Shown here: in pieces, positions 553 through 15,849 of the stretch
How positions within the stretch are numbered: the stretch's first letter is position 1
Layout: each line of letters opens with the position of its first letter
DNA from: Bacillota bacterium
Lineage (GTDB): Bacteria; Bacillota; Clostridia; Oscillospirales; Oscillospiraceae
Direction: 5' to 3'
NCBI GenBank assembly: GCA_021770445.1
Contig: JAETQY010000016.1
Coordinates: forward strand, 1 to 50,627
Length of the DNA: 50,627 nt
Notes under the pieces: generated by a model
Told to the model about the DNA's origin: nothing
Databases searched by the model: none
What the model saw: only the letters and a program-made list of their open reading frames with translations
Made by a program: the position numbers and the translations under genes

Positions 553-1932
553 ATGAACAGATTTGGTATCAGCGTGGAGCTGGAACATATCCCCGTTCTG
601 GACCCGGAATTTATGCCCCTGATGCGCTTTAACCACGCTTTTTTGGCGGACGCAAAAAAACCGGTGGGGATTGCTGTGGAGCGGGCGGACGGCCAGATGG
701 CCTCCTGCCACACCTTCATCCACGGCACACCTGAGATGGCCCAGGCCGACCACTACTACATCGAGCGGCTGGTCAAGACCATTTTGTGGATGAAGGGCGG
801 CTTCAAGATCTATGTCAGTGGCGACGAGGGGACATACGAATATCTGAAGTCGGTCTACTGCGCCGGCGGCCAGCAGGAGTTCGACTGGGACTATATGGCC
901 AACGTCTTTGAGCACCCCTTTGAGATTGTCCTAGTGGACAAGATCCCTGAGGCCAAGGACGCTCCCAAGGCCATCGGCGGCCATTTGGAGGGCTGCCGCA
1001 TCGGCTTCGACGCCGGCGGCTCCGACCGGAAGGTGTCCGCCGTCATCGACGGGGAGACCGTCTACTCCGAGGAAGTGGTCTGGTTCCCCAAAATCAATGC
1101 CGATCCCGATTACCACTACGATGGCATCGTAGCCGCCCTCAAGTCCGCTGCTGAGCACATGCCCAAGGTGGATGCGGTGGGCGTCTCCTCCGCCGGCGTG
1201 TTCATCAACAACCGGACCATGAACGCCTCTCTGTTTTTGAAGGTCCCCAAGGAGCTCTATGACAAAAAGGTGAAGGATATCTACATCCGCGCCATCCGGG
1301 ACACCTTCGGCGACGTGCCCTACTGCGTCATCAACGACGGCGACGTGTCCGCCCTGGCCGGGGCTATGAGCCTGAACGACAACAGCGTGCTGGGCATCGC
1401 CATGGGCACCAGCGAGGCGGTGGGCTATGTGGACGAGGAGGGCCGGATTACCGGCTGGCTCAACGAGCTGGCCTTCGTCCCCGTGGACGCCCAGGAGGGC
1501 GCCATGCGGGACGAGTGGAGCGGCGACATCGGCTGCGGCGTGAAATACTTCTCCCAGGACGGCGTTATCAAGCTGGCCCCCCGGGCGGGGATCGAGCTGG
1601 ACGAGAGCCTCAGCCCGGCGGAGAAGCTGAAGGTGGTGCAGAAGCTGATGGCGGAGGACGACCCCCGGGCCGCCAAGGTGTACGAGTCCATCGGCGTCTA
1701 CCTGGGCCACACCCTGGCCTACTACTACGAGCTCTACGGCTGCCGCCATGTGCTGCTGTTGGGCCGGGTGATGAGCGGCAAGGGGGGCGACCTGATTCTG
1801 GACACCGCCAAAAAGGTCCTCGCCGACGAGTACCCCGAGGTGGCGGGCAAGATGGTCCCCGAGCTGCCCGACGAGAAATTCCGCCGGGTGGGCCAGTCCA
1901 TGGCCGCCGCCAGCCTGCCGGAGATCAAATAA
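553..1932 (+). CDS. ROK-like sugar kinase, probable ManNAc kinase of the sialic-acid locus
   Basis: The 459-residue protein starts at the ATG placed 8 nt after AAAGGAG; upstream ATGs in the frame lack a ribosome site. The C-terminal two thirds (about 148-459) is an actin-fold kinase. GFDAGGSDRK (151-160) is the phosphate-1 loop, VSSAGVF follows, and INDGD (Asp262) is at the position of the ROK catalytic aspartate. The usual ROK zinc motif (CxCGxxGCxE) is absent. The first ~147 residues form an extra domain I cannot assign. It sits 15 bp before an N-acylglucosamine 2-epimerase and in the same locus as NanA and YhcH, so phosphorylation of N-acetylmannosamine is the likely role. This is inferred from context; N-acetylglucosamine is a possible alternative substrate after epimerisation. 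Confidence 0.75.
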   Translation: MNRFGISVELEHIPVLDPEFMPLMRFNHAFLADAKKPVGIAVERADGQMASCHTFIHGTPEMAQADHYYIERLVKTILWMKGGFKIYVSGDEGTYEYLKSVYCAGGQQEFDWDYMANVFEHPFEIVLVDKIPEAKDAPKAIGGHLEGCRIGFDAGGSDRKVSAVIDGETVYSEEVVWFPKINADPDYHYDGIVAALKSAAEHMPKVDAVGVSSAGVFINNRTMNASLFLKVPKELYDKKVKDIYIRAIRDTFGDVPYCVINDGDVSALAGAMSLNDNSVLGIAMGTSEAVGYVDEEGRITGWLNELAFVPVDAQEGAMRDEWSGDIGCGVKYFSQDGVIKLAPRAGIELDESLSPAEKLKVVQKLMAEDDPRAAKVYESIGVYLGHTLAYYYELYGCRHVLLLGRVMSGKGGDLILDTAKKVLADEYPEVAGKMVPELPDEKFRRVGQSMAAASLPEIK

Positions 1933-5596: not shown

Positions 5597-5625
5597 TTGA
5601 CATACCGCCCGTACCCTTGTATAAT
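5597..5625 (+). promoter_or_regulatory. Strong promoter of sialic-acid ABC-transporter operon
   Basis: TTGACA (5597-5602), 17-bp spacer, TATAAT (5620-5625): both boxes are perfect consensus. Such a strong promoter would normally be held by a repressor; the AT-rich inverted repeat upstream and the RpiR gene in the locus fit that idea. Confidence 0.9.
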
Positions 5626-13359: not shown

Positions 13360-13364
13360 ACTGC

Positions 13365-13391
13365 GTCCCCGCCTCGGGCGGGGACGTTTTT
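13365..13391 (+). terminator. Terminator after galT
   Basis: GTCCCCGCC-tcg-GGCGGGGAC (13365-13385) followed by GTTTTTG. Clear rho-independent terminator. Confidence 0.92.
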
Positions 13392-13392
13392 G

Positions 13393-13421
13393 TTGTGTTT
13401 TTCCATATTTTATGGTATACT
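13393..13421 (+). promoter_or_regulatory. Promoter of the small toxin mRNA
   Basis: TTGTGT (13393-13398), 17 bp, TATACT (13416-13421). A start near 13428 would give a leader of about 100 nt before the toxin GTG. The leader contains hairpin GGGGGCA (13485-13491) / TGCCCCC (13498-13504), and the same C-rich strand could instead mask the Shine-Dalgarno GGAAAGGGGGG (13513-13523). Confidence 0.65.
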
Positions 13422-13446
13422 TTCAGCAGGAAAGAGTAATCTTTCA

Positions 13447-13691
13447 GCGCTGCCAGTAACGGTAGGCGGTTGGCCCCTCCTGACGGGGGCAGCTTCTTGC
13501 CCCCTGATCCTCGGAAAGGGGGGCTGCCCAGTGGTGACTTACTCTGATATGTTTACATACAGTCTGGTTATCATCGGCATTATCGGCCTCTTCATTGCGG
13601 CTAATAAAAAGAAGTAACCGCCCATCCCTCACAAAGATAGCGGTTACTTCTTAACCAAATCTTAGAGGGGCTAACCGTCTGCCGGCAGCGC
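13447..13691. repeat. Split inverted repeat linking the 5' and 3' ends of the toxin transcript
   Basis: Two blocks in the toxin leader, GCGCTGCC (13447-13454) and CGGTTGGCCCCTC (13467-13479), recur as reverse complements in reverse order after the gene: GAGGGGCTAACCG (13665-13677, one G-U/A difference) and GGCAGCGC (13684-13691). The mRNA ends could therefore pair with each other. The antisense RNA begins with the same sequence sense as the mRNA leader, so both could compete for the mRNA 3' end. Confidence 0.7.
13531..13617 (+). CDS. Small hydrophobic peptide, Hol_Tox/Fst-like type I toxin candidate
   Basis: The 28-residue peptide reads MVTYSDMF, then a single hydrophobic helix (SLVIIGIIGLFIAA) and a lysine tail NKKK. 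This is the pattern of the putative holin-like toxin family (Pfam Hol_Tox) and of TxpA/Fst-class membrane toxins of type I systems. The GTG at 13531 lies 8 nt after GGAAAGGGGGG; a second GTG at 13534 is an alternative. Its stop codon is inside the stem of a bidirectional terminator, and a convergent antisense RNA overlaps the 3' end. Such peptides damage the membrane when translation is not blocked. Family resemblance is by eye only, but the gene structure supports it strongly. Confidence 0.8.
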   Translation: MVTYSDMFTYSLVIIGIIGLFIAANKKK

Positions 13692-13698
13692 CCTTTCT
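13603..13698 (-). ncRNA. Antisense RNA, candidate antitoxin
   Basis: A predicted transcript of about 96 nt starts near 13698 from the perfect minus-strand promoter at 13705-13733. It ends at the hairpin AAGAAGTAACCGC (complement of 13640-13652) / GCGGTTACTTCTT (complement of 13609-13621) followed by TTTATT. It is fully complementary to the last codons and the 3' untranslated region of the toxin mRNA. The layout (convergent RNAs meeting over a shared terminator) is that of the fst/par and txpA/RatA class. No open frame is present in it. Confidence 0.75.
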
Positions 13699-13704
13699 AT
13701 GTTT

Positions 13705-13733
13705 ATTATAGCTGTGTCCCGCGGATTTGTCAA
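13705..13733 (-). promoter_or_regulatory. Perfect consensus promoter for antisense RNA
   Basis: On the minus strand TTGACA (13728-13733), 17-bp spacer, TATAAT (13705-13710). It has no protein-coding gene in front of it, only the antisense region. A promoter stronger than that of the toxin mRNA is what a labile antitoxin RNA needs. Confidence 0.88.
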
Positions 13734-13757
13734 GCGGGAAAGCGACTGCAACCAGAA

Positions 13758-13781
13758 AGGACCGGGCTTGCGCCCGGTCCT
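13758..13781 (-). terminator. Terminator of flagellin gene
   Basis: AGGACCGGGC (13758-13767) and GCCCGGTCCT (13772-13781) form a 10-bp stem with a 4-nt loop; on the minus strand it is followed by TTCTGGTT. Confidence 0.85.
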
Positions 13782-13821
13782 CTTTGATACGCCTGTGCAA
13801 ATATTTGTGCTCTGTGGCAGA

Positions 13822-15849
13822 TTAGCCCAGCAGCTGGAGAACGCCCTGAGGAATCTGGTTGGCCTGAGCCAGCATGGCCTGAGCGGACTGCACCAGGATG
13901 TTGTTCTTGGTGTAGGCCATCATCTCCTCGGCGATATCGGTATCGCGGATGGTGGCCTCGGCGTCCTGGATGTTCTCCTTCATGGTGGACAGGTTGTTGG
14001 CGGTGTGCTCCAGACGGTTCTGGGTGGCGCCCAGACGGCCGCGGGTGGAGGAAACCTGGTTGATGGCGTTCTTGATAGCCTGAACGGCGTCCTGCGCACT
14101 CTCCTGGGTGCTCAAGCTCTGGTCGTCCAGGCCCAGGGCCTTGACGTGCATGTCGGAGATGGCCACAGAGAGCTGGTTGTAGTCCTCGCTGTCCTCGCCG
14201 ATCTGGAGGGTCAGGCCATTGCCTACCACGGAGGGAGCCGCGCTCTTAGCGTCCTTGGCGTAGACGGTCAGCTTGTCGCCGTCCACCTCAGCGGTGAAGC
14301 CGTCCTTTCCCAGAGCCTCCTTGAGGCTGGCCAGGTCGGTGAAGTCCGTGTCGTAGCTGTACCGCTTCTCCTTGCTGCCGTCCAGAACGGTGAGGGTATC
14401 GCCCTTGGCCAGCTTGTCGGCGGTCAGGGTAATCTCAGTGCCGGCGTTCTTGGCCCCGCTAGCCTGGCCCTGAGCGGAGATTACGCCCACCAGCTTGGCA
14501 TAGGTGTCCAGCTCCTTGGTGGCGGTGCTGGCCTGGGTCTGGTCGATGTGGATGGTGGTGCCGTCGCCGTTGACGCCGATCTTCCAGGTGCGGTTGTCCT
14601 GACCGGTCACGGTCTGCTTGGACAGCAGGTCGGCGGCCTTGTGGACCCACTCGTCCTCACCAAAGGCGCTGACGTCGATCGCAGTGGTGCCGGCGGTGGC
14701 GGTGGTGTTGGCATTGGTTTTGAAGAAGAAGGTCTTGCCGTCGATGGTCAGGGTGTTGCCGTCCTTCACCAGATCGGACAGGTTGATGTCGATACCGGCC
14801 TTGGTGGCGGCCTTCGCAGCCACTGCCTGATCCACCTGGGTAACCTTATGGGTCACGTCGCCAGTCACAGCGCCGGCAGCGCTGGTGAGCTTGCCAACCG
14901 TAACATCGGCGCCCAGCGCCGCATTAATGGCGTCCGCAACGCCCTCATCGCCCTTGAAGGCAGCGCCGGCCTGCCATGTGCCGCCGGTCTTGTCAAAGGA
15001 GCCGGCAAAGGTCAGTGTGACAGTTCCGTTGACGCCAGCGGCGGTAAAGGCGGCACCGCCAAAGTCCGTGGCGTTGGGGGTTGCGGCGCCACCGTTGGTA
15101 GCGTTGATCTCCTTGTTCATCTCGGCCGCCAGAAGGGTGGCGATCTTCGCGGTCGTGCTGAAGCCGTCATCAGCGGTGGCGGTCAGAGTGTATTTCTTGC
15201 TGCCAACATTGATATCCAGTGTGTCATTCTGCTTACTGCCAGTCACAGCCAAGTCGCCCAGGTCGATAACGGCGGCGGGAGCAGCGGCGGTGGCGGCCTT
15301 CCCCTCCATGTGGACCTTGGGAGAGCCGTCGGCTTCCTTGGCCACCAGAGTGGAAATGTCGATCTTACCGTCAGTGGCCTCCTTGGCCGCGACAGAAGAG
15401 ATCTTGAAAGCATCGGTGTTCAGGCCCAGCTTGCCGTCCAGCAGCTTGATGCCGTTGAAGTTGGAGCTGTCAGCGATACGGTTGATCTCGGTCTTCAGGG
15501 CGTTGAACTCGTTCTCGATGGCCTCGCGGTCCACCTGGTCCTGATAGGTGCCGTTGGCGGACTGGGTAGCCAGGTCCACCATGCGGTTAAGCATGTCGTG
15601 AATCTCCTGGGTGGCGCCCTCAGCGGTCTTGACGAGGGAGATACCGTCCTTCACGTTCTTCTGAGCGGTGCCCAGAGCGGTGATCTGCGCGCGCATCTTC
15701 TCGCTGATGGCCAGGCCGGCGGCGTCGTCGCCGGCGCGGTTGATCCGGTAGCCGGAGGACAGCTTCTCCAGGTTCTTCGCCAGGGCGGAGGTGTTGTTGG
15801 TGTAGTTGCGGTAGGCATTCATAGCCATAATATTGTGCTGAATACGCAT
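13822..15849 (-). CDS. hag: Flagellin
   Basis: The 675-residue filament subunit is exported by the flagellar type III system. The N-terminal D0/D1 region has MRIQHNIMAMNAYRNY, LEKLSSGYRINRAGDDAAGL and LNRMVDLATQSANG. The C-terminal D1/D0 region has STRGRLGATQNRLEHT and ends LAQANQIPQGVLQLLG. Residues roughly 150-570 are a long alanine/threonine-rich variable region exposed on the filament, making this about 2.4 times the size of Bacillus subtilis Hag. The Arg and Leu of the TLR5-recognised segment are kept in NRMVDLA. The start is the ATG after AAAGGAG. No other flagellar gene is nearby; it is transcribed alone from a sigma-28 promoter. Confidence 0.96.
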   Translation of the reverse strand: MRIQHNIMAMNAYRNYTNNTSALAKNLEKLSSGYRINRAGDDAAGLAISEKMRAQITALGTAQKNVKDGISLVKTAEGATQEIHDMLNRMVDLATQSANGTYQDQVDREAIENEFNALKTEINRIADSSNFNGIKLLDGKLGLNTDAFKISSVAAKEATDGKIDISTLVAKEADGSPKVHMEGKAATAAAPAAVIDLGDLAVTGSKQNDTLDINVGSKKYTLTATADDGFSTTAKIATLLAAEMNKEINATNGGAATPNATDFGGAAFTAAGVNGTVTLTFAGSFDKTGGTWQAGAAFKGDEGVADAINAALGADVTVGKLTSAAGAVTGDVTHKVTQVDQAVAAKAATKAGIDINLSDLVKDGNTLTIDGKTFFFKTNANTTATAGTTAIDVSAFGEDEWVHKAADLLSKQTVTGQDNRTWKIGVNGDGTTIHIDQTQASTATKELDTYAKLVGVISAQGQASGAKNAGTEITLTADKLAKGDTLTVLDGSKEKRYSYDTDFTDLASLKEALGKDGFTAEVDGDKLTVYAKDAKSAAPSVVGNGLTLQIGEDSEDYNQLSVAISDMHVKALGLDDQSLSTQESAQDAVQAIKNAINQVSSTRGRLGATQNRLEHTANNLSTMKENIQDAEATIRDTDIAEEMMAYTKNNILVQSAQAMLAQANQIPQGVLQLLG

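Follow-up and report, generated by a model that had tools for sequence, protein, structure and literature searches.

A probable type I toxin-antitoxin module of Oscillospiraceae with a self-locking mRNA, a nested antisense RNA and an exchangeable peptide

The locus and its features

The window analyzed here, a stretch of 50,627 nucleotides (contig JAETQY010000016.1, assembly GCA_021770445.1) from a bacterium of the Oscillospiraceae, contains a compact arrangement of features on both strands next to a flagellin gene (Table 1). The plus strand carries a short ORF that is preceded by a Shine-Dalgarno (SD) sequence, AAGGGGGG, and encodes a peptide of 28 amino acids, VVTYSDMFTYSLVIIGIIGLFIAANKKK (translation from the window), so that the peptide ORF and the ribosome-binding site characteristic of a type I toxin-antitoxin system are both present. 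The peptide is hydrophobic (Kyte-Doolittle value of 2.0 over 19 residues), and, when codons 2-22 are compared in 21 sequences, the share of synonymous changes among the codon differences is 55% in this frame and 13% and 3% in the two others, which implies that the peptide frame is under coding constraint. An earlier, sequence-only reading of this DNA had proposed a membrane peptide of 28 residues, and the ORF, its hydrophobicity and the coding constraint all bear this out. The start codon is GTG in the window and ATG in 99 of 114 relatives.

In three genomes (window, 13360-13822; L003, 500-1123; L078, 1442-1760), the module and a flagellin gene converge, with the module immediately downstream; the other side of the module is occupied by galT in the window and by an htpG-like frame in L003.

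Two convergent promoters had been proposed in the same reading, and both sequences are there. The promoter of the peptide itself, TTGTGT-17-TATACT, has 8 of 12 consensus matches, and a promoter is found at the matching position in most of 29 aligned copies. The promoter on the minus strand is a perfect TTGACA-17-TATAAT (12 of 12, read from 13733 to 13705) and the only match of the promoter scan within 1.6 kb, where shuffled sequences give 0.4; one further perfect site of this type occurs in the window, on the plus strand at 5597. As far as sequence alone can tell, a conserved promoter for an RNA antisense to the toxin mRNA is thus present, and we infer that this RNA is the antitoxin. The corresponding stretch, 13698-13603, has a predicted folding energy of -40.3 kcal/mol (z -4.6).

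Table 1. Features of the putative module in the window
Feature	Position	Strand	Basis or details
Promoter of the toxin mRNA, TTGTGT-17-TATACT	13393..13421	+	8/12 consensus matches; -35 at 13393, -10 at 13416
Putative toxin mRNA, ~270 nt, start ~13428	13428..13700	+	Fold z -8.1, U-rich tail, hairpin energies
mRNA leader arm of the predicted long-distance helix (13447-13454 and 13461-13479)	13447..13479	+	Repeat search, fold, covariation
Anti-SD GCCCCCU and Shine-Dalgarno AAGGGGGG (13516-13523) in one hairpin	13499..13524	+	Predicted fold
ORF of the toxin-like peptide	13531..13617	+	28 residues, GTG start, TAA stop
13-bp perfect stem, 13609-13621/13640-13652, holding Lys-Lys-stop	13609..13652		Putative intrinsic terminator of the antisense RNA
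mRNA 3' arm of the predicted long-distance helix, then CTTTCTATGTTTATT (probable mRNA terminator tail)	13665..13691	+	Fold, covariation
Putative antisense (antitoxin) RNA, ~96 nt	13603..13698	-	5' hairpin; terminator hairpin with a U-turn-type (YUNR) loop
Antitoxin promoter, TTGACA-17-TATAAT	13705..13733	-	12/12

Recurrence across genomes

With the 348-bp module as the query, matches were obtained in 20 of 60 related genomes, including the window's own genome, which yielded four. A pattern limited to the stem (AAGAAGTRACCGCC...GCGRTYACTT), with no promoter and no other peptide requirement, was found in 20 of the 64 genomes of the genus, in 2 of 398 genomes drawn across the phylum (one of them the window's genome), in at least 118 stretches of one-per-species genomes and on 32 viral-contig stretches. 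The stem matches listed come from Oscillospiraceae, Faecalibacterium, Oscillibacter, Lachnospiraceae, Oceanobacillus, Virgibacillus, Brevibacillus and others. Among the matches listed that were found in species genomes by the stem only (L061-L178), there are 128 distinct loci, of which 108 have a minus-strand promoter with at least 10 of 12 consensus matches, 89 of these together with a peptide frame, which argues that the module is not a chance combination. All the listed loci taken together (L001-L178, the first 30 of which were gathered by similarity to the whole module) comprise 208 stem matches, 164 of them distinct; a promoter with at least 10 of 12 matches is present in 139, and 117 of the latter have a frame of 20-45 residues. 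As for the 25 of the 164 listed loci that have no promoter of this quality, 17 are the opposite reading of the palindromic stem, with the module already counted, and 8, including the Anoxybacillus match, are true misses. A minus-strand promoter of this quality accompanies 135 of 160 listed loci, compared with 20 of 160 when the plus strand of that stretch is scanned and 1 of 160 when the sequence is reversed, and the distance from promoter to stem is 85-116 nt in 132 of the 139 listed loci.

A longer version of the module occurs in Bacilli (Oceanobacillus, Brevibacillus, Virgibacillus and Ornithinibacillus; L089, L099, L150, L151, L153, L155), with the antitoxin promoter about 138-156 nt from the stem. 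Several of these loci have a separate hairpin with a T-run before the antitoxin -10 box, which could end the mRNA.

A search of Rfam yielded no family matching the module RNA. The window peptide had no match by tblastn in phages and plasmids, its 28 residues being near the limit of the method, and the peptide of a Bacilli relative had none in phages. No description of the module was found in the open-licence literature, to which the search was confined, with subscription journals outside its scope.

The probable ends of the two RNAs

The sequence-only reading held that the two transcripts share a terminator stem that also contains the toxin stop codon. The 13-bp stem with the stop codon is indeed present, but the T-run lies behind it on the antisense side only: in the window, the sequence past the stem is TTTATT on the antisense side and AACCAAATCTTA on the mRNA side. 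In the 132 listed Clostridia-type loci, T was counted only at those five positions behind the stem that are not fixed by the search pattern: on the antisense side, there are 4, 3 or 2 T in 90, 32 and 10 loci, respectively, and on the mRNA side 0, 1, 2, 3 or 4 T in 24, 57, 41, 7 and 3 loci. With 0-2 T on the mRNA side in 122 of the 132 listed loci, the possibility that both RNAs end at the stop-codon stem is rejected, and the stem appears to be the terminator of the antitoxin, rather than a shared one. The lysine codons AAA AAG AAG are, on the opposite strand, the U-tract of the antitoxin; the Lys-Lys-Lys-stop tail of the peptide and the antitoxin terminator would thus be a single sequence used on two strands.

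Further downstream in the window, the complement of the antitoxin 5' hairpin is followed by a T-rich tail, TTTCTATGTTTATT. Over the first four positions of this tail, the frequency of T in 127 listed loci is 0.87, 0.72, 0.51 and 0.70, against a background of 0.24. The hairpin before ~13700 is weak (-13.6 kcal/mol), and a stronger hairpin is located at about 13760-13784. The mRNA probably runs on beyond the stop-codon stem, to end either at ~13700, at the weak hairpin with its U-rich tail, or at the stronger hairpin. Since the stop-codon stem would terminate the antisense RNA only, the 96-nt antitoxin RNA is, with either mRNA end, probably nested in the longer mRNA and does not meet it tail to tail.

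Predicted pairing of the mRNA leader with the mRNA 3' end

A repeat search of the window detected an inverted repeat, 13460-13479/13665-13684. When the mRNA is folded to 13700 (-129.9 kcal/mol, z -8.1), the leader and the 3' end are predicted to form two helices, one of 8 bp (13447-13454/13684-13691) and one of 19 bp (13461-13479/13665-13683), and the complement of the 3' arm is the 5' hairpin of the antisense RNA. Across 111 listed loci, the mean pairing energy of a leader with its own 3' end is -51.8 kcal/mol, compared with -41.4 for swapped and -29.4 for shuffled partners; because the loci are alike, the leader's own 3' end is the best partner in only 16 of the 111 and belongs to the best five in about 47.

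Covariation was assessed for the 38 pairs of the window in 106 listed loci, five loci with doubtful starts having been left out of this and of the SD analysis. Changes on both sides of a pair were counted in 312 cells, compared with a shuffled mean of 149 (maximum 183) and with 87-158 in slid alignments; these are cells, not independent events, and they overstate the number of events because the sequences are related. Paired cells make up 77%, against 39-49% in slid and 72% in shuffled alignments of the same 106 loci, the latter value being so high because the columns are skewed. Within the core two helices, the pairs are formed in 64-98% of the listed loci, and the outer pairs are much less conserved. 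The predicted 5'-3' lock of the toxin mRNA is, then, supported by compensatory changes.

The leader also contains a split complement of the stop-codon arm, GCGGTT...CTTCTT, which matches at 11 or more of 12 positions in 80 of 110 listed loci and in 2.1% of shuffles. Since the leader complements this arm too, the mRNA may alternate between two folds, with the pairing of leader and stop-codon arm as the second.

Different peptides on the same RNA

The sequence-only reading likened the window peptide to the Hol_Tox family (PF16935; cut-off, 23.3 bits), of which BsrG is a member (34.5 bits). For the window peptide itself, the likeness failed: a profile search found no Hol_Tox match, and there was no Pfam or NCBIfam match above the cut-off and a weak holin match in PHROGs (E 0.01). 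For its relatives, it held in part: 8 of 12 hand-chosen relatives from the genus matched the profile weakly (best E 8.5e-5), and three distant peptides on the module passed the cut-off (L065, 28.7 bits; L153, 29.9; L285, 24.2), with L248 below it (14.5 bits) and the MSTSEV type giving no match. In the window's genome, the profile has a single match, below the cut-off and at another locus.

A second pattern, composed of the module 3' end and the -10 box and blind to the peptide, was found in 16 of the 64 genomes of the genus, 17 of 200 genomes of the family and 34 viral-contig stretches. We classed 82 distinct matches, from L191-L296 (five family-genome matches without a locus of their own were left out), by tail patterns that were written after a first look at the data, and obtained 35 Hol_Tox-like, 18 NAC/KAC-tail and 17 NRH-tail peptides and 10 matches with none; before inspection, the NAC/KAC and NRH counts were 19 and 18, but the row of L248 and one row with a peptide in another frame proved spurious. 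An exact -35 box is present in 76 of the 82, without the pattern requiring one. The pairing of leader and 3' end amounts to -47.9 kcal/mol in the Hol_Tox-like class, -45.6 in the NAC/KAC class, -43.5 in the NRH class and -32.6 in the group with none, and 40 of the 50 matches that do not have the AAGAAGTRACCGCC stem sequence pair below the 1st percentile of shuffles.

Among sampled NAC/KAC-tail peptides, seven had no Pfam match and three had no NCBIfam match, and one of five was matched in PHROGs, at E 0.12; two sampled NRH-tail peptides matched neither Pfam nor NCBIfam. Coding constraint is clear in the NRH class (67% synonymous versus 13% and 2% in the other frames; n=12), and in the NAC class the test is weak (26% versus 20% and 12%; n=8). 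The stop codon lies in a 5' arm of at least 8 bp in 24 of 35 Hol_Tox-like, 18 of 19 NAC and 0 of 18 NRH rows; at the NRH loci, by inspection, it is in the 3' arm of the hairpin. The regulatory RNA thus appears, from these sequences, to be a chassis in which different peptide genes have been placed.

Peptides of 25-27 residues ending in KSRNRHSAK/NRHPGR occur at L244, L255, L263, L276, L288 and other loci, and their C-terminal codons are inside the antitoxin terminator hairpin.

The window's genome itself contains a second type of module (C45:75150-75850; L217), with a peptide of 31-33 residues, ...TKVLRFVVCVIITALLLILTAPNAC, and strong complementarity between leader and 3' end. The antitoxin 5' end and promoter are as in the window module, and the peptide is different. 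Inspection of the NAC/KAC-tail copy in this genome revealed no T-run behind the antitoxin stem.

Antitoxin-only copies

At 22 of the 139 listed loci with a good promoter, no peptide frame was found; inspection of these 22 showed that several are truncated at the end of a contig, contain an earlier stop or have a frameshift. In about 8-10 of them, it showed an antitoxin promoter and terminator and no toxin upstream, for example L003+912 (in tandem behind a full module), L034 and L038 (the same flanks in two genomes), L130, L155+2910 and L157+5270; L146 and L163, in which leader-like pairing remains, are doubtful cases. Relatives that keep the promoter and lose the frame, which the sequence-only reading had named as evidence against itself, accordingly do occur, but we read the antitoxin-only copies as a derived state, not as a refutation.

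On contig C27 of the window's genome (L218, minus strand, about 125800-125680), inspection revealed a perfect TTGACA-17-TATAAT with a GAAAGTAACCGC terminator and no toxin frame upstream. The order toxin-antitoxin-antitoxin is seen at L003 (770-1003) and at L296 (near 1375-1500, reverse strand), with flagellin nearby at both loci.

Similarity to known systems and alternative explanations

By anatomy, the module is most similar to bsrG/SR4 of the SPbeta prophage and to bsrE/SR5, which also have a small hydrophobic peptide, an antisense RNA that converges on the toxin mRNA and pairs with its 3' end, an SD closed by few G-C pairs and U-turn-type loops that make, or in the module would make, the first contact. 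Comparison of the bsrG and bsrE RNAs with the module RNA was made by folding and by eye only; the bsrG mRNA of SPBc2 (L215, ends assumed) has a fold with an analogous 5'-3' helix. A 5'-3' main helix of the BsrG/SR4 type is present in the module, by prediction and covariation, and SR4 is described as contacting the 'main helix of bsrG RNA' (PMC6562991). There are also differences. SR4 (180 nt) and SR5 (163 nt) each consist of four stem-loops, and SR5 is complementary to bsrE over only 114 bp, according to the portions cited (PMC7430163, PMC6562991); by contrast, the antitoxin of the module, at ~96 nt and with two hairpins, lacks the 160-180 nt and the four stem-loops of this type and would be fully nested in the mRNA. 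Unlike in bsrG/SR4, the Lys-stop codons of the module double as the antitoxin terminator. Some bsrG/SR4 loci carry BsrH/E instead (PMC6562991), and the swap between unrelated peptides on the module goes beyond such replacement.

Two further families resemble the module, by description. In txpA/RatA of the Bacillus subtilis skin element, a convergent antisense RNA pairs at the 3' ends and acts by an RNase III route (PMC6562991); TxpA has 59 amino acids and RatA 222 nt (PMC7430163). The type I modules of Clostridioides difficile (e.g. CD2517.1-RCd8) are clostridial and convergent and encode small membrane peptides with Lys-rich tails, in all of which they are like the window module, and their toxins have 34-59 amino acids, compared with 28 here (PMC6563280). 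In the portion cited, a 2019 review limits the experimentally known clostridial type I modules to C. difficile (PMC6563280). The comparison across genomes lends good support to the original proposal of a type I toxin-antitoxin candidate with a convergent antisense RNA. Judged by its anatomy, from which we infer the function, the module would work like BsrG/SR4.

In the hok/Sok system, the 5' leader of the full-length toxin mRNA is paired with the 3' end, and the predicted lock of the module mRNA is similar. The antisense complementarity of hok/Sok is in the 5' regions (PMC6562991), in contrast to that of the module, which is at the 3' end.

The sequence-only reading had assigned the locus the architecture of fst/par, in which two RNAs converge on a bidirectional terminator and the ribosome is blocked by pairing of the antisense RNA at repeats around the start site. 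The resemblance to par of pAD1 (RNA I/RNA II, fst) is real as far as it goes, comprising convergent RNAs, a small hydrophobic membrane peptide, a GUG start in the window and a stem with the stop codon; besides, pairing with the SD is conceivable for the 5' part of the antisense RNA (AGCCCCUCU with AGGGGGGCU, as read from the window sequence). However, a repeat search around the start site of the window ORF found no direct repeats of the DRa/DRb kind that, among other features, are described for fst/par (PMC4147584), and the terminator is apparently not shared, given the T-run on the antisense side only. A better account of the antisense leader is that it complements the 3' arm of the mRNA. The fst/par assignment therefore gives way to the likeness to BsrG/SR4 and BsrE/SR5, and we consider an fst/par-like module very improbable.

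A related proposal, that the antisense leader acts mainly by blocking the SD, is also disfavored, the shared leader sequence being better explained as the two sides of a long-distance helix.

The peptide could, alternatively, be no toxin but a small membrane protein that serves in house-keeping or signalling and is tuned by the antisense RNA, and the flagellin gene that adjoins the module in three genomes could signify such a local role. Against this speak the patchy distribution in the genus (20 of 64 genomes), the multiple copies, the occurrence on viral contigs, the membership of module peptides in the same Hol_Tox family as BsrG and the exchange of unrelated peptides on one RNA, so we regard this explanation, too, as highly unlikely. 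Least plausible of all, to the point of being hardly credible, is a MITE-like element whose terminal repeats are the inverted repeats, with the peptide and the promoters riding along: several copies per genome, tandem copies, an inverted repeat near both ends and the stem pattern on 32 viral-contig stretches would fit, but the window's genome has a second full copy with a likeness of only 72%, the arms vary between loci by compensatory changes, conservation extends past the repeats to both -35 boxes (in the displayed part of the alignment) and the peptide frame is under coding constraint.

The interpretation that, on the sequence evidence, is very probably correct is a type I toxin-antitoxin module on the chromosome, of the same kind as BsrG/SR4 and with a self-locking mRNA, a nested antitoxin and an exchangeable peptide.

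How the antitoxin might act

The plus-strand mRNA would encode the membrane peptide of 28 residues, which is probably harmful to its own cell. The full-length mRNA would lock itself by pairing the leader, 13447-13479, with its own 3' end, 13665-13691, and would hold the SD in a predicted hairpin. From the strong minus-strand promoter, a 96-nt RNA would be produced whose sequence complements the final codons and the 3' UTR. The first contact would conceivably be made by the U-turn-type loop of the antitoxin terminator: YUNR is found in this loop at 116 of 132 listed loci, against 58% in shuffles, and in the mRNA loop at 72 of the 132, against 48%. The 5' half of the antitoxin complements the mRNA 3' arm and so resembles the leader and could replace it; the 5' part of the antitoxin would, then, displace the leader from the mRNA 3' end. 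The expected outcome, as a prediction, is a long duplex that RNase III could cleave and an SD that is closed somewhat more tightly. Both the loop contact and the RNase III cleavage are drawn by analogy from the systems of B. subtilis.

In the window, folding with the 3' end blocked brings the share of the SD that is predicted to be unpaired down from 0.30 to 0.13; across 106 listed loci, the corresponding values are 0.28 and 0.22, with a decrease in 73 and none in 33; with the 3' region blocked, the predicted accessibility of the start codon in the 106 listed loci is unchanged. This modest predicted tightening on antitoxin binding is in the same direction as the effect of SR4 on bsrG. SR4 extends the SD pairing of bsrG from 4 to 8 bp, an effect that, according to the portions of the reports cited, is not seen for SR5 or RatA (PMC6562991, PMC7430163).

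Implications

The module recurs in Oscillospiraceae and their neighbors and has relatives in Bacilli (Oceanobacillus, Virgibacillus, Brevibacillus). Because a single RNA unit is found with at least three unrelated peptides, we offer the rule of a conserved control RNA with an exchangeable peptide. More tentatively, and with a confidence that falls slightly short of even, we suggest that, in gut Clostridia, the chassis is older and more conserved than its cargo, that three or more unrelated peptides have been exchanged on it and that free-standing antitoxins act in trans; the chassis would then consist of the self-locking leader and 3' end, the nested leader-like antisense RNA and the stop codon in the hairpin over the antitoxin 3' end. 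The leader, the 3' end and the antitoxin promoter together provide a sequence handle for toxin-like peptides that are missed by protein profiles, and a leader-like antisense RNA that would compete for the mRNA 3' end offers a simple mechanism to probe.
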